Below, piece by piece: positions 22,949 through 38,192 of a DNA stretch of 64,000 nucleotides. Source of the DNA: Caldithrix abyssi DSM 13497 (lineage in GTDB: Bacteria; Calditrichota; Calditrichia; Calditrichales; Calditrichaceae); NCBI RefSeq assembly GCF_001886815.1, contig NZ_CP018099.1, forward strand, positions 1,114,501 to 1,178,500, read 5' to 3'. The notes under the pieces are model-generated. The model saw nothing but the letters and a program-made list of their open reading frames with translations. It searched no databases and was not told the origin of the DNA. The translations under genes were made by a program, and so were the position numbers. Within the stretch, counting starts at the first letter, position 1. Every line of letters starts with the position of its first letter.

Positions 22949-24656
22949 AGGCTGTTGCAAATTCAGTTTGAGTAAAATTCAAAAAATTTGTAAATTCTGG
23001 GCGACAGATAAAACAAGTAATAACAAAGGAATTCCATGAGTTTTATTACTTATAATCGCTCACAAATGAATCTCTTTGGCTATAGTGTGGAAGATTTTGC
23101 CAGAGACGATCCAAAGAGTCGATTTGTAGTGGAGTTGGTTTCGCGCCTTGATTTAAGTGCACTTTATTCCCGTTATAGTTCACAAGGCGGTGATTCTTAT
23201 GCCCCAGACATGATGCTTGCCTTATGGTTTTATGCTTATAGTAACGGCATTACCAGCACCCGTAAGCTGGAGGAATTGTGTAAATATGATACGCGCTACA
23301 TTTATATCACTGGGAATCAGCATCCGGATCATAGTACATTAAGTCGTTTTCGCAAGGCACATTTGGATTTATTAGACCAATATTTTGTAGAGATACTTTT
23401 AATTGCCCAGGCCGAAGGCATAAGTAGTTTCAACCAGATAGCCATAGATGGCACGAAAATCAAAGCGCACAGCAGTAAGCGTCATGGCTACACTGAGGAT
23501 CAATTAGACAAACGTATAGAGAAGTTAAGAGCAGAGATCAAGCAATACATGCAGCGCTGTAATTTTGTAGAACAGGGGGCCACGGATGAATTAGATTTAG
23601 AAACTCTTCGAGCGGAGAAAGAACGGCTTGAGCGCTTAGAGAAAGAGATATTAGAACGTAAAGCCCAATTGAAAGAGCGTAAGAAACAGCTCAAATCAGA
23701 ACACCGTTCAAGACATCAAATAAATGTAAAAGAGCCGGATGCCCGCATGATGCCTTCGGTGGATGGACCGGGCTATAACGCACAATTAGGCGTAGATATG
23801 TCCAGTCATTTAATAGTAGCTCATGAAGTCGTAAGCCAGCCCAACGACCAGGGTCAATTCATACCGATTCAAGAACAAGTAGAGAAGAATCTTGGTTCAG
23901 ATGATAAGCGATCTTACACGGCCGATTCCGGTTATCACAATAGCACAGACCTAAAAGAATTGGAAGAAAAGCAGATCGATGCCGTAATAGCCGATCCCCA
24001 GTTATCCAATCGTTCGATAAAGGAGACACCGACCTCCAAGGAAGAATTGCAAAAAGAAGAAAGAAAACTAAAACGAAGTGATTTTGTGTATCATGAACAG
24101 GGAGATTACTATGAATGTCCGGCGGGTAAGAAGCTTTTTCCAGTTGAGAGGAATAGCGAACGGATCGTATATCGTTCCAATGATTGTCAGGACTGTCCCT
24201 TAATTAATTTATGCATTTCCAGTAAAAAGAAAGTTAAGCAAATCCATCGTTCAGTTAATGAGAGTTATTGCGAACGTATGGCGAAAAAGTTACAAACTTC
24301 AGCGGCGCAGGAACGACTAAAGAAGCGTTCGGTGACAGTTGAACCTGTTTTTGGTAATTTGAAGCATAATTTAGGCTATCGTGGATTTTCCTTATCTGGT
24401 CTTAATAATGTTCGTAGTGAATTTACGTTAATGTGTATTGGGCATAATATTAATGTTCTATTTAAAAATATGTTAGGGAAACGTTTAGCAGCGTTTATAA
24501 AAGCATCACAAGAAAAAGATGATCTATTAATTTTATTTTCAAAGAATATTTTGGCATTTTTAATTCTATATTTTGCCCAACGTTTAAGAATGAGAAAAAA
24601 TTATCAATATCGGAGAATATAAACATTAATTCCTCCCCCCCCCCATGCAACAGCCT
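22949..24656 (+). mobile_element. IS1182-family insertion sequence, apparently intact
   Basis: A 1708-bp element with perfect 11-bp terminal inverted repeats, AGGCTGTTGCA at 22949-22959 and TGCAACAGCCT at 24646-24656. It is flanked by the 6-bp direct repeat CCAGGG at 22943-22948 and 24657-24662, consistent with target-site duplication. The inverted repeats can be stretched by neighbouring G/C, so the boundary is certain only to within about two bases. It contains one full-length transposase gene. A run of ten C precedes the right end (24635-24644). Perfect ends and direct repeats suggest recent insertion. Confidence 0.9.
23036..24622 (+). CDS. IS1182-family DDE transposase
   Basis: 528 residues, full length. 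The N terminus (FVVELVSRLDLSALYSRY, DPKSRF, YAPDMMLALWFYAYSNGI) and the TGNQHPDHSTLSRFRKAH motif are typical of IS1182/IS5-group transposases. Catalytic residues are D138 (IAIDGTKIKAHSS), D297 (YTADSGYHN) and E436 (VEPVFGNLKHNLGYRGF). Between them are a Lys/Glu coiled stretch (about 160-225) and a cysteine cluster (YECPAGKKLF, CQDCPLINLC), also typical. AAAGGA precedes the ATG at 23036. No frameshift or stop interrupts it, so the element should be active. Confidence 0.95.
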   Translation: MSFITYNRSQMNLFGYSVEDFARDDPKSRFVVELVSRLDLSALYSRYSSQGGDSYAPDMMLALWFYAYSNGITSTRKLEELCKYDTRYIYITGNQHPDHSTLSRFRKAHLDLLDQYFVEILLIAQAEGISSFNQIAIDGTKIKAHSSKRHGYTEDQLDKRIEKLRAEIKQYMQRCNFVEQGATDELDLETLRAEKERLERLEKEILERKAQLKERKKQLKSEHRSRHQINVKEPDARMMPSVDGPGYNAQLGVDMSSHLIVAHEVVSQPNDQGQFIPIQEQVEKNLGSDDKRSYTADSGYHNSTDLKELEEKQIDAVIADPQLSNRSIKETPTSKEELQKEERKLKRSDFVYHEQGDYYECPAGKKLFPVERNSERIVYRSNDCQDCPLINLCISSKKKVKQIHRSVNESYCERMAKKLQTSAAQERLKKRSVTVEPVFGNLKHNLGYRGFSLSGLNNVRSEFTLMCIGHNINVLFKNMLGKRLAAFIKASQEKDDLLILFSKNILAFLILYFAQRLRMRKNYQYRRI

Positions 24657-26783: not shown

Positions 26784-28316
26784 ATGAATTATCCGGTGTG
26801 GGAAGTCGCCTTTGGCTCTGGCCTTGTAATGGCCGTTGTATCGGTGGTGCATGTTTTTGTGTCGCATTTTGCGGTTGGCGGCGGTCTTTTTCTGGTGCTA
26901 ACCGAACACAAAGCCTATCGGGAAAACGATGCCCGCTTGTTAGAATGGCTCAAAAAGCATACGCGCTTTTTTGTGCTGGTTACGGTGGTCTTTGGCGCGG
27001 TAACCGGCGTTGGCATCTGGTTTACCATTGGCCTTATTCAACCCACAGCCACCAGCAATCTGATTCACATCTTTGTCTGGGGCTGGGCCATCGAATGGGT
27101 TTTCTTTTTTCTTGAAATTACAGCCGCCTTGCTTTACCTGTACGGCTGGCAGAAAGTGGAGCGAAAACTTCATCTCATTTACGGCTGGATTTATTTTGTC
27201 ACGGCGTTTATGAGTATGGTGGTGATTAATGGTATGGTCAGTTTTATGCTTACGCCCGGCGACTGGCTGCAAACGCACAATTTCTGGGACGGATTTTTTA
27301 ATCCCACCTACTGGCCTTCCTTATTTACGCGCTTTTTATTTTCTCTGGCCTTAGCCGGAATTTACGCCCTGTTTACGGCTACCCTGCAAAAAGACAAAGT
27401 CTTACGCGCTAAAATTGTGAAATGGAGTCTGGGCTGGGTAATTCCCGCTTTTATTCTGGTAGCGCTTTCTGCCTGGTGGTACCGGGGCGCCATTCCTGAG
27501 GATGTCTGGTTGTACGCCAGGGGAGTAATGCCCACCGCGACCTTTTACTTAAAGTTGATGATTATTTTCGCCGTACTGACATTTGTGCTTGCGGCACTGG
27601 CCTATTTAAAAGCGGCCCGTTTGCCGTTTGCCTTTGCCGTTGTCATTACTCTTACCGCATTTGTAACCATGTGGTCGTTTGAGTTTGTGCGCGAAGCCAT
27701 TCGCAAACCGTATGTTATTTACGATTATGTTTACGGCAATTCGCTGTATGTCAGGCCCATACCCGGCGACGACGGGTTTAACACGGAAAACCTGCAAGAA
27801 AAAGGAATGTTGCAGACAGCCAAATGGGTTCAGCAGCGCGAAATCAACGAACAGAATATGGAACAGGTCGGAAAAGAAATTTTCCGTCTGCAGTGTATGA
27901 GCTGCCATACAACGGAGGCTTATCGCGGCGTAAAACAGTACATCGAAACCTATCAATGGGATGAGACGGTCATTGCCGAAATGTTGCGCGGCATTGAGCT
28001 GATGGGCAGGGGAATGATGCCACCCTTTGCCGGAAACGATCAGGAACGCCTGGCCCTGGCGCGCTACCTGGCGAACCTGACCACACAGGTAAAACCGCTG
28101 TCGCTAAGAGACGGGCAAAAACTGTACGCCAGCTACTGCGGGGTTTGCCACCGGAGCGCTGCGGATGAGCCGGCCGTGGAGTTTTTTAAGGAACTGGAAA
28201 AGGAAGAGGCCATGGAAATACTGGATAATTTACCTGACCTGATGGAGCAAATGCCGGCCCTGAAGTTGAGCCCGCAGCAAAAGCAAACCCTGTATGAGTG
28301 GTTGAAAAATCGATAA
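26784..28316 (+). CDS. Cytochrome bd-like subunit I fused to two c-type haem domains
   Basis: 510 residues from the ATG at 26784, preferred over an upstream TTG (26757) because GGAGG lies at 26775-26779. The first ~330 residues are polytopic and resemble CydA by eye. H23 or H28 in the first helix could match the haem ligand H19 of E. coli. FGAVTGVGIWFTIG matches its second helix, and WAIEWVFFFLEI carries two Glu (E104, E111) near the E99/E107 positions, one residue closer. REAIRKPYVI resembles the CydA C-terminal region. The quinol-binding Q-loop is not recognised. RFLF has Phe where CydA has the haem b558 His. The C terminus has two c-haem sites, C371-x2-C374-H375 and C452-x2-C455-H456, with GRGMMPPF supplying a likely Met ligand. 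Probably an oxidase or electron-transfer complex fed by cytochrome c. Confidence 0.78.
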   Translation: MNYPVWEVAFGSGLVMAVVSVVHVFVSHFAVGGGLFLVLTEHKAYRENDARLLEWLKKHTRFFVLVTVVFGAVTGVGIWFTIGLIQPTATSNLIHIFVWGWAIEWVFFFLEITAALLYLYGWQKVERKLHLIYGWIYFVTAFMSMVVINGMVSFMLTPGDWLQTHNFWDGFFNPTYWPSLFTRFLFSLALAGIYALFTATLQKDKVLRAKIVKWSLGWVIPAFILVALSAWWYRGAIPEDVWLYARGVMPTATFYLKLMIIFAVLTFVLAALAYLKAARLPFAFAVVITLTAFVTMWSFEFVREAIRKPYVIYDYVYGNSLYVRPIPGDDGFNTENLQEKGMLQTAKWVQQREINEQNMEQVGKEIFRLQCMSCHTTEAYRGVKQYIETYQWDETVIAEMLRGIELMGRGMMPPFAGNDQERLALARYLANLTTQVKPLSLRDGQKLYASYCGVCHRSAADEPAVEFFKELEKEEAMEILDNLPDLMEQMPALKLSPQQKQTLYEWLKNR

Positions 28317-28333
28317 AATTTTTCGGAGGAATT

Positions 28334-29446
28334 ATGAACGTCCACGATATTATTCCAATCATAGATCCCAATCCCATCCCCGGTCCTTTCTGGCTTTTTA
28401 AGCTACTGTTGATGGTAACTTTTTTGCTGCACATCCTGGCCATGAACATGATGATGGGCGTTGCGGTCATTGCTCTGGCTGCAAAATTTAAAATACAGAA
28501 CGAAATGTACCAGAAATTGTACGACAACTTAAAGAGTAAAATACCCAATCTTCTGCCGGCCACCATCACCCTTGGCGTGGCCCCGCTGTTGTTTGCACAG
28601 GTGCTTTACGGGCCATACTTGTACACGGCCACCATTATTTCCGGTTGGGTGTGGTTTTCCATCATCATCTTGCTGACCGTGGCTTATTACGGATTTTATT
28701 TTGTTTCCTTTAAAAAAGAGGAAAAATTTAAAAAGCCGATTTTAATTTTAAGTGTGGCGTTGATTATGTTCATCGCCCTTATTTACACCACTAACGTTCT
28801 TTTGTACATGCAACCGCAGTACTGGGCGGAAAAATATTTTGAACAACCTGCAGGCGCTCATTTGTTTTTAGACGACGCTACGTTGATTCCGCGTTTTCTA
28901 CATTTTATCATCGGGGCGCTGGCCATTGGCGGATTGTTTGTGGCCGTGATTGGATATTTAAAGAGGAAGAAAGAGCCGGAATTCGCCGCCTTTTTAATTA
29001 AACATGGCGGACGCTGGTTTATGTTTGCCACCATGGCCCAGTTTGTGGTGGGCAGCTGGTTTTTAGTTGCCCTGCCCCGCGAACAAATGCTACTGTTTAT
29101 GGGCAAAAATATGGCCGCCTCCATCCTTTTAGTGCTGAGTATGGGACTGACTCTGCTTACCATTTTTATGATGTCGCGCAAATTAAAAGGCGAGGTGTTA
29201 CAGGCGCCGGTAGCGGCCATCTCCTTTATTACTTTTATCGTTCTGGTCATGATGATCGTTATGCGCGATATTTTACGCGATTCGTATCTTGGACCTTATT
29301 TCAGAGTAGAAGAATTGTCATTTCAACCGCAGTGGGCAGTGTTGGCGTTGTTTCTGATACTTTTTGCGGCCGGGATTCTGGTCTGGCTGTGGATGTTGAA
29401 AAAGTATCCCTTTCAAGCCGATGTTAAAAACGAGAAAGGTGTTTAA
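28334..29446 (+). CDS. Polytopic membrane partner of the bd-like/c-haem protein
   Basis: 370 residues from the ATG at 28334 (GGAGGA at 28325-28330), 17 bp after the preceding gene, so clearly one operon. About nine hydrophobic helices. By eye it resembles subunit I rather than a standard CydB: FLLHILAMNMMMGVAVIAL puts H33 near the CydA H19 position, and RFLHFIIGALAIGGLFVAV puts H190 where CydA has H186, the ligand missing in the partner. The Glu pair of the partner is absent. This suggests two related subunits sharing haem ligands between them. The standard CydB N terminus is not evident. Function is inferred from context. Confidence 0.65.
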   Translation: MNVHDIIPIIDPNPIPGPFWLFKLLLMVTFLLHILAMNMMMGVAVIALAAKFKIQNEMYQKLYDNLKSKIPNLLPATITLGVAPLLFAQVLYGPYLYTATIISGWVWFSIIILLTVAYYGFYFVSFKKEEKFKKPILILSVALIMFIALIYTTNVLLYMQPQYWAEKYFEQPAGAHLFLDDATLIPRFLHFIIGALAIGGLFVAVIGYLKRKKEPEFAAFLIKHGGRWFMFATMAQFVVGSWFLVALPREQMLLFMGKNMAASILLVLSMGLTLLTIFMMSRKLKGEVLQAPVAAISFITFIVLVMMIVMRDILRDSYLGPYFRVEELSFQPQWAVLALFLILFAAGILVWLWMLKKYPFQADVKNEKGV

Positions 29447-29501: not shown

Positions 29502-31619
29502 TTAGTTTTTCTCAATTTTCCCATTTGCCGTAAAAGCCGTCAGCTTTTCTTTCAGTAAATTCAGATTTAACGGTTTGCGCAAAACCATGTCCACGCCGGC
29601 TTTAAGGGCGCCCTCGATTTCGCGGGCGTCATCGCTGGCGGTCAGGGCAAAAATGGGCGTGTGTTTGCCGCTCTCTTCTTCTAATTTTCGCATCTCTCTG
29701 GTGGCCGTGTAGCCATCCATGACCGGCATTTGCATATCCATCAATACCAGATCAAATGGTTTCTGTCTAAAAAGTTCCACGGCTTCCTTACCGTTCCTGG
29801 CCAGCTCCACCTGAAAGCCGGCGCGTTTTAAAATGGAGATCATCAACTTCTGGTTCACGCGGTTGTCTTCGGCAACCAGCACTTTTAAAGCAGGTTCCGA
29901 TTCCTTTAACGTATGGCGCGTAATCAAAGTGTTCTCCGGTTTTGCGCCGCTGACAATAGTGCGGATAGTTTTTAGCAATTCTCTGGAGCGGATCGGTTTT
30001 AACAAAAAGGCTGCAATGCCGCTTTCAAGGCAGCGCCGGGCGTCTCCGGGTTTTCCAAAGTTGGTCAGCAATATGATTTGCGGCGCGGCGCCCTGGCTGG
30101 CGGCGCGCACCTGTTCGGCCAGCTCAAAATGAAAGTCGTTGTCAGGACGCGCGTCAATCAGCAGCAGGTTAAACGGATTTTTAGCCCGTGCAGCCTGAGT
30201 TAATAACTTACTAAGTTTCTGGCGCTCTCCGGTTACTTTAACATCTATTTTCCACTGCCGCAGTAACTCTTCCAGCACAAGGCCGCTCATCCACTGGTCG
30301 GAATAAACCAGTACGCGAATCGAGCTTAGATCAACGTCTGTTTCGGGGCCAGGCGCGGCAGGCTTTTGACTTGCCGTAGAAAAGGGAATTAAAATTTCAA
30401 TTTGCTGAGTCTCCGCCTGTTCTTTTTTTAAGGCGATTTTGTAATCCAGTTTGGCAATACAATAGTTCACAAAATCGATACCGGTATCACCGCTTTGATG
30501 CGCAGATTGACCGTTTGGATGGATGAGCCTGGAAAAATAATCTGAAATGTTATCGTTGGCCGGAAAGGATATTAAAAATTTAATTCGCCGCTCCTCAACG
30601 GGTTCTATATTAATTATTATGTTGCAATGCGAAAGATTCTGGAAAAGGACATCCATAATCACAAAAGCCAGATGTTTTAAGTAATTGGGATCGTGATGTA
30701 TGAACAAAGGGATTTCGGGATGGATGCGTAAGAGTAGTTCGATCTGTTTTTCGCCGGTCTGAACAACAAAGGGCGAAAGCGCGTCTTCAATACAGTCGCG
30801 AATGTTGAAATCCGTTTCGTGAATGGGAAGATCGTCGCCTTTTTCATGGTAATCCAGCGCTTTTTGCAGGTCGTTTAAAATGGAAAGCAGATGATCGGAA
30901 TTTAGCCCGGCGAGTTGAGTCTGTAACTCGCGTTCGGCTTTGTCGTCAGATTCTTTTAGCAAATCAACGATGTGCAAAATGTTGTTCAGAGGCGTGCGTA
31001 ATTCATTGACAAATGATTTTAAAAGAGCGTAATCGGTCGGCGTGTTTTTTTTGCTGCGGGATTGCAGCTCTTTTTGTAATTTGTTTACCTCGAACTTATA
31101 CTGGTAGTAACGCTGGTAGGCCTGCAGGGCGCTGCGGTAGGCAGAAAGCAAAAGATTTAATAGCTGCCGGTTGTTGGTGGAAATCTCGTGCGTATCTCCC
31201 AGGTAGATGCTTGTGAGAATAACCTGCGGATTGGTTTGCCCGGCAACGGTTTCATTTTGCAGCGCATCGTTCACAAACGAAAGCAGCGCGCCCGGTTCAA
31301 ATTCTTTCAAAAACAGGTAGTCGGCGCCGCATTCTATGATTTTGATAATTTCTTTTGGCTCGTTCAGGGTGGTCATCAATACCACCGGAATGGTTTGAAG
31401 TTGAGGATGAGATTTAACCGCTTTGCAAAGTTCCATGCCGTTCATCTCGGGCATCATAATATCGCTTAAAATCAGGTCCGGTTTCTGCTCGTGAATTTTT
31501 TCAAGGGCCAGTTTGCCATTGGCTGCGGTCGTTATTTTAAAACCATCTCCGGCAAGCGCCTTTTCAATAAAAAATCGCTGAGCCAGGCTATCTTCAACAA
31601 CTAAAATATTTTTTGCCAT
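29502..31619 (-). CDS. Multi-receiver hybrid protein with His-less kinase remnant
   Basis: 705 residues; last gene of the chemosensory operon. Receiver 1 (1-120) is intact: D53 in LILSDIMMPEMNG, T83, K105. A helical region leads to SFVNELRTPLNNILHIVDLL (about 202-220), a histidine-kinase dimerisation motif in which the phospho-acceptor His is Asn (N205). The following ~200 residues look like a degenerate ATPase domain lacking clear N and G boxes. Receiver 2 (about 430-555) keeps the Asp (LLLIDARP) but has a weak acidic pair. Receiver 3 (about 580-700) is intact (VLVAEDNRVNQK, LVLMDMQMPVMDG, LTASDD, LRKPL). It cannot autophosphorylate in the usual way, and probably receives phosphate from CheA as scaffold, sink or output. 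Confidence 0.85.
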   Translation of the reverse strand: MAKNILVVEDSLAQRFFIEKALAGDGFKITTAANGKLALEKIHEQKPDLILSDIMMPEMNGMELCKAVKSHPQLQTIPVVLMTTLNEPKEIIKIIECGADYLFLKEFEPGALLSFVNDALQNETVAGQTNPQVILTSIYLGDTHEISTNNRQLLNLLLSAYRSALQAYQRYYQYKFEVNKLQKELQSRSKKNTPTDYALLKSFVNELRTPLNNILHIVDLLKESDDKAERELQTQLAGLNSDHLLSILNDLQKALDYHEKGDDLPIHETDFNIRDCIEDALSPFVVQTGEKQIELLLRIHPEIPLFIHHDPNYLKHLAFVIMDVLFQNLSHCNIIINIEPVEERRIKFLISFPANDNISDYFSRLIHPNGQSAHQSGDTGIDFVNYCIAKLDYKIALKKEQAETQQIEILIPFSTASQKPAAPGPETDVDLSSIRVLVYSDQWMSGLVLEELLRQWKIDVKVTGERQKLSKLLTQAARAKNPFNLLLIDARPDNDFHFELAEQVRAASQGAAPQIILLTNFGKPGDARRCLESGIAAFLLKPIRSRELLKTIRTIVSGAKPENTLITRHTLKESEPALKVLVAEDNRVNQKLMISILKRAGFQVELARNGKEAVELFRQKPFDLVLMDMQMPVMDGYTATREMRKLEEESGKHTPIFALTASDDAREIEGALKAGVDMVLRKPLNLNLLKEKLTAFTANGKIEKN

Positions 31620-31628
31620 GATTAAAAT

Positions 31629-32396
31629 TTATTTCTCTTTATCGCTCTGTCGTTTTTTTACTTTGTCTGCGTATTCCGGATACAATTCCACCAGGCACGT
31701 GGGACATAAACTGTGCGTAAAGGTGACCTCGGCATGCTCTTCGATGTACTCCTCCACGCGGTGCCAGTATCCTTCATCGTCGCGGATTTTATGGCAATGA
31801 GAGCAAATGGGTAACATGCCGTGTAGTTGTTTGATTTCGTTCAGGGCTTCTTTTAATTCTTTGTTGACGCGTTCTAACTCGCGCGTCTTTTGTAGAATGG
31901 TTTCGTACGATGAGAGCAGGATGTCGATGATTTGCATTTGCTGAGAGGTGATGGTGTGCCTTTTGCCGGCAAAGACGACCTCGAACTTTAATTCCGGCCC
32001 GTTAGATTCGCGGATTTTTTGGTTGGCCAGAATGTATTCGATGCGGTTAATCAAAGTCGGCAGATCGTACGGCTTGATAATAAAGTTATCCGCGCCGGAT
32101 GCCAGGCCTTTAATAATGTCTTCCGGTTCCTGCAGGGCGGTTAAAAGAATCACGGCCAGCGGCGGATCCTGGAACTCTTTTTTAATGATTTTGCACAATT
32201 CGTAGCCATCCATCTCCGGCATAATCACATCGCTGATTACGATGTCGAACGTTTGCCCTTTGAGCAATTCCAGCGCTTCCATGGCGTTATAGGCCACCGT
32301 TGTTTGATAACCCTCTTTGTTTAGGTCGCGTTTTAATTGCAGCGCCTGAGTTTTGCTATCTTCGACGATTAAAATTCTGGGATTTTGTTTTTGCAT
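31629..32396 (-). CDS. Response regulator with C-terminal Cys/His motif
   Basis: 255 residues. Residues 6-125 are a complete receiver (IVEDSKTQALQLKRDL, D in VISDVIMPEMDGYEL, LLTALQEP, IIKPYD). An alpha-helical linker (ETILQKTRELERVNKELKEAL) leads to a C-terminal module with LPICSHCHKIRDDEGYWHRVEEYI and SLCPTCLVEL, whose C-x2-C-H and C-x2-C spacing suggests a metal site. This tail is known from other stand-alone regulators and some sensor proteins, but its output is not established. It lies 14 bp after cheB, so it is a likely phosphorylation target of the operon's CheA. Confidence 0.88.
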   Translation of the reverse strand: MQKQNPRILIVEDSKTQALQLKRDLNKEGYQTTVAYNAMEALELLKGQTFDIVISDVIMPEMDGYELCKIIKKEFQDPPLAVILLTALQEPEDIIKGLASGADNFIIKPYDLPTLINRIEYILANQKIRESNGPELKFEVVFAGKRHTITSQQMQIIDILLSSYETILQKTRELERVNKELKEALNEIKQLHGMLPICSHCHKIRDDEGYWHRVEEYIEEHAEVTFTHSLCPTCLVELYPEYADKVKKRQSDKEK

Positions 32397-32410
32397 CGTT
32401 TGATCTCCGT

Positions 32411-33433
32411 TTATGATTTATTAAAGATCGTTTTTATTTGCTCAACTATTTGTTCGGGTGAAAAAATAAATTGCGCGGCGTCCAATTTGATGGCAACGCC
32501 CGGCATGCCGAACACCACGCAGCTCTCTTTGTTCTGGGCAATGGTTAACGCCCCTTTCTGCTTCATCAAGGCCAGCTCCTCTGCGCCGTCTTTGCCCATC
32601 CCGGTTAGCAAAATGCCGATTGCTCTGGGCCCCAGCGCTTCGGCAACGGATTTAAACAGGTAAGAAACAGCGGGTTTAACGCTGTGTACAGGCGGCGCGT
32701 CAATTAACTTAATCCTTCCATTTCTGGAAATGGTCATGTGATGATCGCCCGGCGCAAAATAAACATGGCCGGGTTGGGTTTTTTCGCCGTCTCTGGCAAT
32801 CTGTATGTGCAGCGGAGATTCGGCATCGAGCCATTCGATGAATAAGGGGATGAAATTGACCGGCATGTGCTGGACAACTACAATGGGTACTGGCAGGTCG
32901 CCTGGAAGATTTTTAAATAAATAATTCAAAATCTGCGGGCCGCCGGTGGAGGCGCCGATGGCAATTAATTCAAATTGATTTTTATGAATTGAGGTCGGTT
33001 TGCTTAATGTCCCATCCCCGGCAGGCGTTTTGTCGAAGTTGTTCAAATGCGACGTGTCTTTTACCTGATTGTTTTTAATGTATTGGATAAGCTCTCTGGT
33101 TTTTGTGAGAAAATTTTCGTCCGTAGGATTGAGCGGGAAGTTGGGAAAGGGCACAAGCCAGGAATCTCGCGGCGCCTTCAGGTTCTCCGCATTTAGCAAC
33201 AGAATGGAGCAGCCGAACAGCTGGTGTAAAAAGTGCAGCCTGTCCGCAAAATCTTCCACTTCTTTTGAAACGACGAAAACCACAAAGTCAAACGTATGTT
33301 TCGCGCTTAACTGGTTGAGCACCAGCTGATCTTTGTTGAAGCTTAATGAAACGTTAAAGTCTTTTTCTTTTTTTAAAGATTGTTCGATTACCGTTCCATA
33401 TACCATAGATTGCGCAATAATCAGAATATTCAT
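32411..33433 (-). CDS. cheB: CheB-type methylesterase with degenerate receiver
   Basis: 340 residues. The C-terminal methylesterase domain is intact: S162 in GASTGGP, H189 in VVQHMP and D282 in LTGMGKDGA form the catalytic triad, with spacing like the S164/H190/D286 of Salmonella CheB. The N-terminal ~120 residues have receiver length and start MNILIIAQSMVYGTVIEQSL, but lack the acidic pair (A7/Q8) and the phospho-acceptor Asp (DFVVFVVSKE where DxxxxD-P is expected). Methylesterase activity is therefore probably not switched by phosphorylation. It removes methyl groups from receptor glutamates, opposing the CheR of the same operon; in Wsp systems the matching gene is wspF. Confidence 0.9.
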   Translation of the reverse strand: MNILIIAQSMVYGTVIEQSLKKEKDFNVSLSFNKDQLVLNQLSAKHTFDFVVFVVSKEVEDFADRLHFLHQLFGCSILLLNAENLKAPRDSWLVPFPNFPLNPTDENFLTKTRELIQYIKNNQVKDTSHLNNFDKTPAGDGTLSKPTSIHKNQFELIAIGASTGGPQILNYLFKNLPGDLPVPIVVVQHMPVNFIPLFIEWLDAESPLHIQIARDGEKTQPGHVYFAPGDHHMTISRNGRIKLIDAPPVHSVKPAVSYLFKSVAEALGPRAIGILLTGMGKDGAEELALMKQKGALTIAQNKESCVVFGMPGVAIKLDAAQFIFSPEQIVEQIKTIFNKS

Positions 33434-33442
33434 GGTTTTCGG

Positions 33443-35686
33443 TCACTCCGTTCCGATTAGTTTGTGGATGAGGTCTAATAAGGATTTTTGTTTGAAATCC
33501 TGTTTTATGAAATAGGCGTTGGCGCCCGCTTCCAGGCCTTTTTTCCGGTCGCTTTCGGAACCTAAAGAGGTCAGTAAAATGACCGGTATTGATTTCATTT
33601 TTTGTTCGGCTTTTATTTTGCGTGTCAATTCAACGCCGTCCATCTCCGGCATTTGCACATCGGAGATGATCAGATCGAACGTTTGCTTTTGCAAAATTTG
33701 CCAGGCCTGCTGGCCATTGATGGCGGTTTGAACTTCGAATCCCGCCGATTCCAGAACATTTTTCAACAGAACGCGCGAAGTGATGGAGTCTTCTACAACT
33801 AAAATTTGTTTTGGTTTTTGTTTTTTGATGGCCATTGGCTTAAACCGGTCGGAGCAGGCCGCAAAAATATCGTGCACATTCAAAACCGGCACAAGCGAAC
33901 CGTCGCCTAAAATGGTTACGCCGGATAAAAACCGGACTTCTTCCAGAGGCGGATTGAGCTTTTTCAGGATGATCTCTCGTTCATCAAGAACCTGATCCAC
34001 TGAAACGGCAATTTCATGCTGTTCGTCAAGGCGCAGAATAAGAATGTTCAGATATTGGGGCGTCTCCCTGTCTTCAGTTTTAATGTCTAAAAGAGAAGCA
34101 AGAGAAAAGAGCGGGATGTTTTGTCCGTTTAAATTTACTACCAGTTGGTTTTCGACCGTTTTTAATTGAGCAACCTCCAGCCGCATGGGCAGCCGTACGA
34201 ATTTGGTGGGAATGATCGCCCGAAAGTCATTGGTGTAGATTAAAATCCCCCGGCTGGTGGCAAAGCTCAGGGGAATGGTCAGGTAAAAGGTGGAGCCGTT
34301 GGGATAGTAGTTTTCTACTTTTAAGCTGCCGCCCAGCTTTTCGATGTTCTCCAGAACAACCGCCATCCCCAGCCCCCGTCCGGAAAGCTTGCTTACCTCA
34401 TCTTTAGTGGAAAGACCGGAGTGAAATATCAAAGAGAGAACCTGGCTTTCGTTCATGTCGTCCAGTTCCGCCTGAGTGACCAGGTTTTTTTTCAGAGATT
34501 TTTGTTTGATTTTAGCCAGGTCCAGGCCTCGGCCATCGTCAGAAACTTTTACCACAATGCTCTGATCTCGCGGAGGCAGCACTTCAATGGTGATTTTACC
34601 CACTTCTGGTTTTCCGCGCATAAGGCGTTCTTCCGGCGGTTCAATGCCGTGATCCAGGCTGTTTCTGATCAGATGAATGAGGGGGTCTTTTAGTAACTCC
34701 AGGGTGTGTTTATCCAGCTCAACCTCTTTGCCGTAAATTTTTAATTCGATTTTTTTATTCATTTCACGGGCAATGGCCCTGGTGGAGCGTTCCAGATAAT
34801 TGGTAATGGTGGAAAAAGGGAACATCATCAACTGCTTAATATCATCCAGGTGCTTGTCGATCATGGCCGTTATTTGAAACAGATCATTCTCCAAAGTATT
34901 CTTAAGGAGGTCCACCTGTTTTTTGATCAGGGAAAATTCTCTGAAGAGTTCGGAATTAAGGGCGTCGGCTGAATCGGACGCTACGAGCCATTGTCTCCTT
35001 TTTTTGCCGATCGCTTCTAACTGGTCATACAGTTGATTGATATGATCGATGTAAAATTTCTGTTTGATTTTAATGGCGATCAGATCTTCCGATTGGGTAA
35101 ACAGTTCCCGGATTTTCTGGTACGAGATTCGGATGGTCTCCTGGGCTGCATCCGCTGATTTGGGTTGAGTGGCGGGGGCGGGCTCTGGAGCGGTGGTTTT
35201 TTCGGGCGTTTGCCCGGCTGCTTCCGGTCGGGACGCTTCGGGCTTTTGCGCTGCTTTGGGCCTGGCTGCCGGTCTTTTTTGCGCTTTTTCTTTGGCCGCT
35301 GCTTTAATTTCGCCGCTGGCGGCGGCCTGCAGTTGCTTTAAAATATCGATGTCGCAGGAGGCGTTAAAATTATTTTGATTTAACAGCTCGTTCAGATGTT
35401 CGATGCTGCGATTCAATACCGCCCGTATTCCTTCGTTCAGCTTAAGCTCCTTGTTCTTGATTTTGGAAAAAAGAGACTCAATGGCCTGGCATAACTCTTC
35501 CACCGCCGAAAAATTTACGGCCCGGGCAGCGCCCTTTAAACTGTGCGTGGTACGGAACATCTCTTCGACGGCGCGCTCATCCGCTCCTTCTTCCAGAGCG
35601 AGCAACCCGTCGTTTAAAATGGTTAAATAATCTTCCGCCTCGGCCTTGAATATTTCTAAAAGTTCTCGTTCAAAATCCTGATCCAT
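33443..35686 (-). CDS. cheA: CheA histidine kinase with C-terminal receiver
   Basis: 747 residues. The Hpt domain is at 1-110 with H48 (FRTTHSLKGAARAV). A Pro/Ala/Lys-rich flexible linker (about 125-190) takes the place of a P2 domain. A helical dimerisation domain follows. The ATPase has an N box IHLIRNSLDHGIE, G1 VSDDGRGLD and G2 SGRGLGMAVV. A CheW-like domain is at about 480-605, and a complete receiver at about 625-745 (LVVEDSITSRVLLKNVL, LIISDVQMPEMDGVEL). CheA with fused receiver is typical of WspE/FrzE-type systems rather than flagellar chemotaxis. It lies between the MCP and cheB genes with 8-9 bp gaps. Confidence 0.94.
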   Translation of the reverse strand: MDQDFERELLEIFKAEAEDYLTILNDGLLALEEGADERAVEEMFRTTHSLKGAARAVNFSAVEELCQAIESLFSKIKNKELKLNEGIRAVLNRSIEHLNELLNQNNFNASCDIDILKQLQAAASGEIKAAAKEKAQKRPAARPKAAQKPEASRPEAAGQTPEKTTAPEPAPATQPKSADAAQETIRISYQKIRELFTQSEDLIAIKIKQKFYIDHINQLYDQLEAIGKKRRQWLVASDSADALNSELFREFSLIKKQVDLLKNTLENDLFQITAMIDKHLDDIKQLMMFPFSTITNYLERSTRAIAREMNKKIELKIYGKEVELDKHTLELLKDPLIHLIRNSLDHGIEPPEERLMRGKPEVGKITIEVLPPRDQSIVVKVSDDGRGLDLAKIKQKSLKKNLVTQAELDDMNESQVLSLIFHSGLSTKDEVSKLSGRGLGMAVVLENIEKLGGSLKVENYYPNGSTFYLTIPLSFATSRGILIYTNDFRAIIPTKFVRLPMRLEVAQLKTVENQLVVNLNGQNIPLFSLASLLDIKTEDRETPQYLNILILRLDEQHEIAVSVDQVLDEREIILKKLNPPLEEVRFLSGVTILGDGSLVPVLNVHDIFAACSDRFKPMAIKKQKPKQILVVEDSITSRVLLKNVLESAGFEVQTAINGQQAWQILQKQTFDLIISDVQMPEMDGVELTRKIKAEQKMKSIPVILLTSLGSESDRKKGLEAGANAYFIKQDFKQKSLLDLIHKLIGTE

Positions 35687-35694
35687 CGGGACCT

Positions 35695-37656
35695 CTAACT
35701 CAATTGATAAATGGAGATGATACTTTTCAGGTTTTCGCTGGTTTTCTTCAGGTCTTCGATCACCTCTTCTAACTGGTGCATGCCGTCCAGGTTTTGCGTG
35801 GTGGCCTCTTTGATGTTTTCCATAGCCTCTTTAATTTGCGAGGTGCCCACAAGTTGCTCCCGGGAAAAATCAGAAATTTCGGAAAGCACAGTGATCAGAC
35901 TTTCAATGGAAGATGAAAGATTTGTCATTGAATGATAGGCTTTTTGCACAAAATCAACGCTGCCGTCGATGGTTTTGTTGGTTTGCTCCACCTGTAAAAC
36001 GGTTTTACTGATCGATTCCTGGATGGTGTCCAGAATGTTTTGAATTTGCTGCGTGGATTTTTTGGACTGATCGGCAAGATTGCGAACTTCATTGGCCACC
36101 ACGGCAAAACCCTTGCCGTATTCGCCGGCCTTGGTGGCTTCGATGGAGGCATTAATGGCCAGGATGTTGGATTGCTCGGCAATTTCTTTAACGGCCGCTG
36201 TAATCTCGCCGATGGTCTGACTTTGTTTGCTCAGGTCGATGACCATGGCGGAAACCTGATCCATTTGCTTTTTGACCTCCTGAATGCCCTGGTTGATCTG
36301 GTTAAAGGCTTCGGTGCCCTGGTTGGTAATCTCCACCGCTTTTTCGCCGACTTTCAGAGATTCTTTGGCCTTTTCGTTAAACGATGTTGCCAGTTGAGAA
36401 ACTTCTTCCGAACTGCTGGCGGTTTGTGAAATGGCTGTTGCCGTTTCAGAAGAAGAAGCCGTTATCTGGGCAATGGTGGCCGAGATTTCGCTGGAGCTGG
36501 AAGAGATCACATTGATATTTTCCAGCAGGTCGCGCAGCTGCGCCTTTAATTGGTCAACAAAGTTTTTTAGACTGTACGTCAATTTTCCAATCTCATGTTC
36601 GCCGTCAATAACCTTAATATCCGCATTTAAATTACCGGTTGTGATTTGCTGGATATCGCTGATAACCGATTCAATAGATCTGGAAACGCGGCTTCCCACG
36701 GCATAAGCTGCCGCCGCACCAAATAACAACAAAAAGGTGCACAGAATGATGAAAAAGATAATCAAATTGCGTAGCGGGGCGCTGAACTGATCGTACAAAA
36801 TTTGAGAAACCACAATCCATTTAAACTGCCCGGACGAGAAAGCCGCAAAAGATACAGGAGAGGCGCAGGCAAAAGCATCTCGTTGGGCAAAATCGAAAAT
36901 TCTGGTGCAGGTGTTAAAATTAGTAAACTGACTGATTTTAATGCTTAACCCCTGCTTTTGTGAGCCAGCGGTGGACAGCACGTTTCCGTTTTTGTCCACT
37001 AAATAGACCTGTAGTGTGGGCTTTAGCGAAAGACCTCTTTGTAAGATTTGATCTATGGACTTTTGCGGGATTTGCAGAGCAATGACGCCCAGAACTTCCC
37101 GACGGTTGTTTAGCACGGGCAGGGCCATAAAGAGAACCGGTTCGTTGGCAAAAGGATCGTATCGAAAATCAGACATGCTCAATTTTTTGGATTGCGTCGC
37201 ATTTTGTACGGCCTCTGATAAAGGCGAGTCGGAGAATGAGGCCTCGTAAACAGATTTGTTAAAATCGTTTTGAGGCTTGCTCTGGTAAAAGATGGCGCCG
37301 GTTGTGCTTTCGATAAACGAGACATTGATGTTTTCCCGGTTGGTGATATGGGCGATAATTCTGTTAATGCGATTTTTTTGAGCGGAATTGAGTTGCGTGG
37401 CCTTAGAAAAGGTTTTAACAATATCGCTGTTTGCGGCCAACAAATTCAAATAGGTGATGTGGCTCTTCAAAAAATCTTCAATCAGGTCTTTTTTAGTGTC
37501 GCTCAACCATTTTAATTCTATTTGCGTTTCATTTTTATGATCGTTGGCAAAATAGCGATAGGTGAAAATACAACCAAAGATGATGGGAATGAAAAGGATT
37601 CCCACCATGCTGCTGATCAATTGAGCCTTAAATGACCTTTTAAACAATTTGAACAT
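35695..37656 (-). CDS. Methyl-accepting chemotaxis protein
   Basis: 653 residues. An N-terminal membrane helix (about 13-33) is followed by a ~250-residue periplasmic ligand domain of Cache size (residues 40-285). The second helix (LIIFFIILCTFLLLFGAAAAYAVG) leads to HAMP (about 310-365) and a long cytoplasmic coiled coil whose tip EIAEQSNILAINASIEATKAGEYGKGFAVVANEVR is the conserved CheA/CheW contact. No C-terminal tether pentapeptide for CheR/CheB is present (ends SIISIYQLS). It is the only receptor in the operon, so it probably signals specifically to this CheA. Ligand unknown. Confidence 0.93.
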   Translation of the reverse strand: MFKLFKRSFKAQLISSMVGILFIPIIFGCIFTYRYFANDHKNETQIELKWLSDTKKDLIEDFLKSHITYLNLLAANSDIVKTFSKATQLNSAQKNRINRIIAHITNRENINVSFIESTTGAIFYQSKPQNDFNKSVYEASFSDSPLSEAVQNATQSKKLSMSDFRYDPFANEPVLFMALPVLNNRREVLGVIALQIPQKSIDQILQRGLSLKPTLQVYLVDKNGNVLSTAGSQKQGLSIKISQFTNFNTCTRIFDFAQRDAFACASPVSFAAFSSGQFKWIVVSQILYDQFSAPLRNLIIFFIILCTFLLLFGAAAAYAVGSRVSRSIESVISDIQQITTGNLNADIKVIDGEHEIGKLTYSLKNFVDQLKAQLRDLLENINVISSSSSEISATIAQITASSSETATAISQTASSSEEVSQLATSFNEKAKESLKVGEKAVEITNQGTEAFNQINQGIQEVKKQMDQVSAMVIDLSKQSQTIGEITAAVKEIAEQSNILAINASIEATKAGEYGKGFAVVANEVRNLADQSKKSTQQIQNILDTIQESISKTVLQVEQTNKTIDGSVDFVQKAYHSMTNLSSSIESLITVLSEISDFSREQLVGTSQIKEAMENIKEATTQNLDGMHQLEEVIEDLKKTSENLKSIISIYQLS

Positions 37657-37673
37657 CGTAGCGCCTCCTAAGA

Positions 37674-38192
37674 TTATTTTGATTGATTAAAAAGAGGTTG
37701 TTGTGCGTTTAATATATTTTGCACGTCAACTAAAACGGTCGAATCTTTTAACAACCCCTGAATGTAACTCTTTTGTTTGCCTTTAATGCCGGTTAAATTG
37801 GTCTGGATTTCTTTTTCGGAAATGATGCGGTAGTCGATTATCTGATCAATTAACAGGCAAACTTTTAGCTTATCGTGTTCAATGACAATGACATATTGAC
37901 CGTCCGCCGCGTCCGTTTTTAGATTGAATATTTGCTTAAGATCGAGCACGGTGTAGATCACGCCCGAAACATTGATCACGCCGGCAACCACAGGCGACAC
38001 GCCCGGTATCTGAGTCGCTCCTCTAAAAGGCTGAATGGCCCTGATTTGTTGAACGTCAATGGCGTAAAGCTCATTGTTTAACGAAAATAACACAATGGTG
38101 CGCGCGTCTTTGATCTCTTCCGGCAGGAACGCTTTTTGAGCTAAGCGTTTGGCGCGTTCTTTTAACAGCGTATTTTTGTCGTTTGTCTCCAT
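37674..38192 (-). CDS. cheW: CheW-like coupling protein (second in operon)
   Basis: 172 residues. An N-terminal extension of ~27 residues precedes the CheW fold: TIVLFSLNNELYAIDVQQIRAIQP, VSPVVAGVINVSGVIYTVLDLKQIF, VCLLIDQIIDYRII. CheW links receptor tips to CheA. Two CheW genes flank cheR in this operon, as wspB and wspD flank wspC in Pseudomonas. It lies 17 bp before the MCP gene. Confidence 0.92.
   Translation of the reverse strand: METNDKNTLLKERAKRLAQKAFLPEEIKDARTIVLFSLNNELYAIDVQQIRAIQPFRGATQIPGVSPVVAGVINVSGVIYTVLDLKQIFNLKTDAADGQYVIVIEHDKLKVCLLIDQIIDYRIISEKEIQTNLTGIKGKQKSYIQGLLKDSTVLVDVQNILNAQQPLFNQSK

Follow-up and report, generated by a model that had tools for sequence, protein, structure and literature searches.

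The genes described here lie in a window of 64,000 nucleotides, part of the single-contig 4.98 Mb genome of Caldithrix abyssi; phylum-mates from the Calditrichota are among the relatives of the pair (L012, L013). Two genes are of interest, which we refer to as subunit I and subunit II (Table 1). They share a strand, only 17 bases separate the stop codon of the first from the start of the second, and the flanking genes are unrelated to them. The pair therefore forms a bicistronic unit. Upstream, the translations read as an oxidoreductase-like and a transposase-like product; the transposase-like gene (window positions 23036-24622) lies 2 kb from the pair and has no evident connection to it. Directly downstream, on the minus strand, is a long series of response-regulator, CheA/CheB-like and methyl-accepting chemotaxis genes (window positions 29502-38192).

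Table 1. Gene pair of C. abyssi and its sequence features, in window positions
Feature	Position	Strand	Remarks
Subunit I gene	26784-28316	+	ATG at 26784, stop ends at 28316; 510 aa product; CydA-type
First c-haem site of subunit I, C371-x-x-C374-H375	27894-27908	+	C371, C374 and H375 in 100% of 84 relatives
Second c-haem site of subunit I, C452-x-x-C455-H456	28137-28151	+	From the sequence
Ribosome-binding site of subunit II, GGAGG	28325-28329	+	Read from the sequence
Subunit II gene	28334-29446	+	ATG at 28334; 370 aa product; CydA paralogue (CydA'-like), 9 TM helices

Judged by its sequence, subunit I is a true CydA homologue. Residues 14-229 matched Cyt_bd_oxida_I (PF01654) with 57 bits and an E-value of 1e-15, above the curated cut-off, and C-terminal c-type cytochrome domains were likewise detected above the curated cut-off (PF13442, 59 bits). 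The AlphaFold model, built with 68 relatives, had a pLDDT of 92.4 and eight transmembrane helices, and its top 17 Foldseek matches in the PDB were all bd-oxidase chains. By the positive-inside rule both termini are outside (N-out, C-out), which indicates that the predicted c haems of subunit I face the periplasm.

Residues H23, E104, E111, E300, R303, E304, R307, C371, C374 and H375 were invariant in 84 relatives of subunit I. In alignment with CydA, H23 corresponds to H19, E104 to E99, E111 to E107, E304 to E445 and R307 to R448, the E. coli numbers being those that we take from general knowledge of the family. A preliminary description of this locus had reported two glutamates in the second conserved helix region, which are E104 and E111; the third glutamate, E304, is also kept and was absent from that description. 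It had further listed two CxxCH motifs, at C371 and C452, and both are present in the sequence. M412, conserved in 97% of the 84 relatives, is probably the Met ligand of the first c haem. Meanwhile, the segment between TM6 and TM7 has only 14 residues in place of the Q-loop, and the column of the b558 ligand H186 holds hydrophobic residues (R183-F-L-F186 in C. abyssi), as expected from the earlier claims that subunit I has no quinol loop and carries a Phe where CydA has the b558 His.

The spacing of the two glutamates provided insight into the haem arrangement. E104 and E111 are 7 positions apart with no inserted Leu, the same spacing as in the Geobacillus enzyme, whereas the sequences of enzymes with the Leu101 insertion, such as those of E. 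coli and the canonical CydA of C. abyssi itself, display a spacing of 8. The structural meaning of this insertion and of the spacing has been described (PMC8951039). The shorter spacing predicts, by analogy, a Geobacillus-like arrangement in subunit I, with the H23 haem probably capped by E104.

Subunit II had no match in Pfam, NCBIfam or the PDB sequences. Profile comparison with hhalign aligned it to subunit I over 280 columns (E 5e-14) and to CydA (E 1e-6, probability 91), against an E-value of 0.07 and a probability of 0.8 for CydB. We rejected a CydB identity on these values, and the earlier statement that the partner resembles CydA more than CydB is upheld. The AlphaFold model of subunit II (73 relatives, pLDDT 93.2) matched bd-oxidase chains of the PDB at Foldseek ranks 1-15, followed by weak matches to ActF and PsrC at ranks 16-17. 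An NrfD/PsrC identity was rejected on this ranking and on the hhalign matches to subunit I and CydA. Based on the profile comparison and the AlphaFold model, subunit II is a CydA paralogue, neither CydB nor NrfD. The bd-superfamily membership that had been proposed for both subunits thus stands, with PF01654, hhalign and Foldseek in agreement: the profile searches and predicted folds, called for as a check against NrfD/PsrC or another non-bd family, returned the bd fold.

The two histidines originally singled out in the partner, H33 and H190, were found in all of its 74 relatives, as were R187 and R311. H33 aligns with H19 of CydA and H190 with H186, the b558 ligand. At the positions of E99 and E107 subunit II displays hydrophobic or small residues, and at that of E445 an Asp, His or Glu. 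We looked for the sixth b558 ligand at the column of CydA M393, where the residue of subunit II is not Met; M307, M354 and M37 are unproven alternatives. Putative haem pockets at H33 and H190 could hold up to two haems. Two separate sites are our default reading, since the equivalent sites of CydA serve different haems: those at H19 and H186 lie 15 Å from each other, with a b558-d Fe-Fe distance of 15.2 Å (PMC6853902). A conceivable alternative is one bis-His haem held jointly by H33 and H190.

Together, the residues of the two proteins are complementary in their predicted roles as ligands. Subunit I has the O2-site set and lacks the b558 ligand, while subunit II has the b558-type His and lacks the O2-site glutamates. 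These residues are invariant in 84 relatives of subunit I and 74 of subunit II, so the pattern is not due to chance, and the division of haem ligand positions between subunits suggested for this locus is borne out by the alignment to CydA. Sequence comparison also indicates that both subunits descend from CydA. In the tree, subunit I, subunit II, canonical CydA and OR-N each formed a clade; subunits I and II were sister clades, set apart from quinol oxidases (qOR) plus OR-N with a support of 92, which calls for caution given the long branches.

Scanning one genome per species, we confirmed at least 550 relatives of subunit I. The best 80 of these were distributed over Calditrichota, Acidobacteriota, Ignavibacteria and other lineages of the Bacteroidota group, Zixibacteria, Desulfobacterota, Verrucomicrobia, Armatimonadota, Latescibacterota and others. 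Genes of subunits I and II adjoined in all of the approximately 72 loci long enough to hold both. Clustering of neighbouring genes across phyla gave only subunits I and II in common, with no conserved third partner. Among viral contigs, 35 pattern matches yielded no confirmed relative. The distribution within the phylum of C. abyssi was patchy, with pair-type matches, distant ones included, in 9 of 40 genomes. Subunit I was the only type of PF01654 protein in three of the five relative genomes that were checked.

All 84 relatives of subunit I carried a c-haem tail, with one, two, three or eight CxxCH motifs. In Desulfobacterota the gene order was mostly reversed (II-I) and the tail was octahaem, its last part resembling MtrC/cytochrome c7 domains. 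Reversed loci in which subunit I has about 880 aa and eight CxxCH motifs were L036, L039, L046, L047, L049, L050, L052-L056, L060, L063, L067, L069-L071, L075, L078, L081, L082, L084, L086, L087 and L091. As a side reading, this version may be a bd-type oxidase that carries its own haem wire. In a Desulfobulbaceae-type family, 33 of 74 genomes encoded subunit II. We tentatively suggest that the haems of CydA were divided after a duplication, with the O2-reducing haem pair alone kept in one paralogue, which gained c haems, and only the low-spin b site or sites kept in the other; the octahaem version seen in Desulfobulbaceae could be an unrecognised terminal oxidase fed by periplasmic wires, possibly in cable bacteria too.

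Some of the neighbourhoods contained respiratory genes. In L051 the pair adjoined, in divergent orientation, the operon of an alternative complex III; in L080 it came immediately after Rieske and cytochrome b genes. In Ignavibacteria, two tandem copies of subunit I preceded a single subunit II (L033:5647-9416, L035:6980-10726), near genes of a cbb3-type oxidase. Variants of the c-haem complement were also observed. A separate gene for a trihaem protein with the motif LGMHC followed the pair in L005 (2610-4070), and in L006 and L007 this protein is apparently fused to subunit I at the C-terminus; it had no match in Pfam, NCBIfam or the C. abyssi genome. A distant homologue of subunit II with its own C-terminal CxxCH (L008:1384-2754, L009:1147-2493) immediately preceded alternative complex III genes of multihaem ActA-like and TAT-ActB-like type. 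In a Geobacter-type locus, the gene right after the pair encoded an octahaem cytochrome of the tetrathionate-reductase family (L074:9922-11430; TIGR04315, 522 bits).

Within the bd superfamily, families that lack a quinol site, namely OR-C and OR-N, were reportedly named by Murali, Gennis and Hemp in 2021. OR-C comprises CydA-type proteins that bear c haems and may be paired with a paralogous subunit. In its features the C. abyssi pair matches this family, which makes it a probable member: it has a bd core without a quinol site, and its CydA-type subunit bears a c-type haem motif, the CxxCH being invariant in the 84 relatives. Since such families already have names (cited in PMC13189123, PMC10839748 and PMC11707229) and the pair is common, the label of an undescribed system given in the preliminary description was too strong. 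Its observations were confirmed and its interpretation holds for the architecture, but not for that label. What stands out about the pair is that the ligand positions are divided invariantly between two paralogues, that no family model covers subunit II, and that an octahaem version exists.

The CydAA' enzymes of the OR-N type in Nitrospira and Nitrospina (PMC10839748, PMC12342949) resemble the pair in consisting of CydA paralogues, in their proposed use of cytochrome c, and in being encoded near alternative complex III. However, OR-N proteins have 14 TM helices, are accompanied by separate dihaem c proteins, keep the His at the b558 position, and form a separate clade, whereas subunit I of C. 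abyssi has 8 TM helices plus a c domain and lies apart in the tree even from the OR-N-like proteins of its own phylum. Those proteins, found in class-level relatives (L118, L125-L128), have about 600 aa and 14 TM helices, with an adjacent gene for a dihaem c protein. Archaeal CydAA' (qOR4a/b; Caldivirga) is also built from two paralogues of the superfamily; it is said to use quinol and to have no c haems. Canonical CydAB (E. coli, Geobacillus thermodenitrificans) shares the fold of both subunits and the equivalents of H19, E99, E107 and E445 in subunit I, but has CydB as partner, all three haems in one subunit, a quinol loop and no c haem. The helix bundle of subunit I with its ligand equivalents, and the same fold in subunit II, place the pair in the superfamily, while the missing Q-loop, the hydrophobic H186 column of subunit I and a partner other than CydB set it apart from canonical quinol oxidases.

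We propose, with a probability of about 0.7, that the pair is a two-subunit terminal reductase of the bd superfamily (OR-C type), whose electrons would come from carriers in the periplasm, either c-type or copper, or straight from a complex III, and which most likely reduces O2. This proposal builds on the homology, ligand conservation, gene pairing and loop-charge topology described above. We know of no spectroscopy, activity data or other biochemistry for any member of the family. The order of electron transfer that we infer, with the presumed haem occupancy and with O2 as the presumed substrate, would begin with complex III or alternative complex III oxidising quinol outside the pair. On the periplasmic side, the c haems of subunit I would then receive the electrons from a small c-type cytochrome or a copper protein, or by direct contact. 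From there they would pass to the b-type site or sites of subunit II, likely a relay or a replacement of the lost b558, and on to the high-spin haem pair of subunit I; a direct route is the alternative. Next to an H23 haem capped as in Geobacillus, O2 would be reduced at the E304-ligated haem with protons from the cytoplasm. O2 is not certain as substrate, since strictly anaerobic anammox bacteria have a related bd-like protein of the OR-N type (PMC3578206).

The C. abyssi genome encodes a canonical CydAB elsewhere, and the pair is therefore not simply the bd oxidase of this organism. A gene for an ActA-like multihaem c protein lies next to a Cox cluster. Class I c-type cytochromes are scarce, and an anchored monohaem c-type protein of 123 residues is a candidate electron donor. 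A COX1-family protein of 745 aa (L130, G000:C1:1543500-1547500) looks like a quinol-dependent NO reductase.

One alternative keeps the architecture and changes the task, with the pair acting as a periplasm-fed reductase of peroxide, NO or trace O2 in stress defence and not in O2 respiration. In its favour, such side activities are established for canonical bd oxidases, the pair is carried by many anaerobes (Desulfobulbaceae, Geobacter), and C. abyssi itself probably does not respire O2 (PMC5317091). We nevertheless consider this alternative unlikely, as the complex III operons adjoining the pair (L051, L080) point to a respiratory role, and aerobes such as Granulicella also carry it. Less probable again is an electron-transfer module that is not a terminal reductase, in which electrons would be exchanged between c haems, membrane b haems and quinone, in complex-III-like manner or in reverse electron transport. 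Such a role was reportedly once proposed for the bd-like protein of Nitrospina. The octahaem tails, suggestive of wiring to extracellular or periplasmic electron networks, would fit such a module, as would the related protein of anaerobic anammox bacteria (PMC3578206). Against it, neither subunit has a quinol loop, and the invariant H23, E104, E111 and E304 would be superfluous in a pure relay.

Two further readings are highly improbable. The match of subunit I to the CydA family could suggest an ordinary cytochrome bd quinol oxidase (CydAB) with added c haems, but subunit I has neither Q-loop nor b558 His, its partner is not CydB, and canonical CydAB is encoded separately. Equally doubtful is a quinone-linked complex with subunit II as an NrfD/PsrC-type quinone protein: it draws on the weak ActF and PsrC matches, which rank below an unbroken series of bd-oxidase chains, and is contradicted by the profile matches to subunit I and CydA.

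If the pair is a terminal reductase as we propose, it would serve the otherwise anaerobic C. abyssi by removing O2 or in microaerobic respiration. We regard the two tasks as equally plausible in an organism that failed to grow by respiring O2 (PMC5317091).

These findings have implications for how respiratory chains are read from genomes. Annotation of such loci shows a lone CydA and misses the whole oxidase, because no Pfam or NCBIfam model exists for subunit II. Closed genomes of cable bacteria have been reported with only CydA and no complete oxidase (PMC10030654), reports on which the missed subunit II may bear. If true, a cytochrome-c-fed bd enzyme would also explain how the chain ends in many organisms that have complex III but few haem-copper oxidases. 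To our knowledge, quinol is the electron donor of all bd oxidases whose structure or activity has been determined. The enzyme proposed here would represent a second wiring of copper-free, high-affinity oxygen chemistry.
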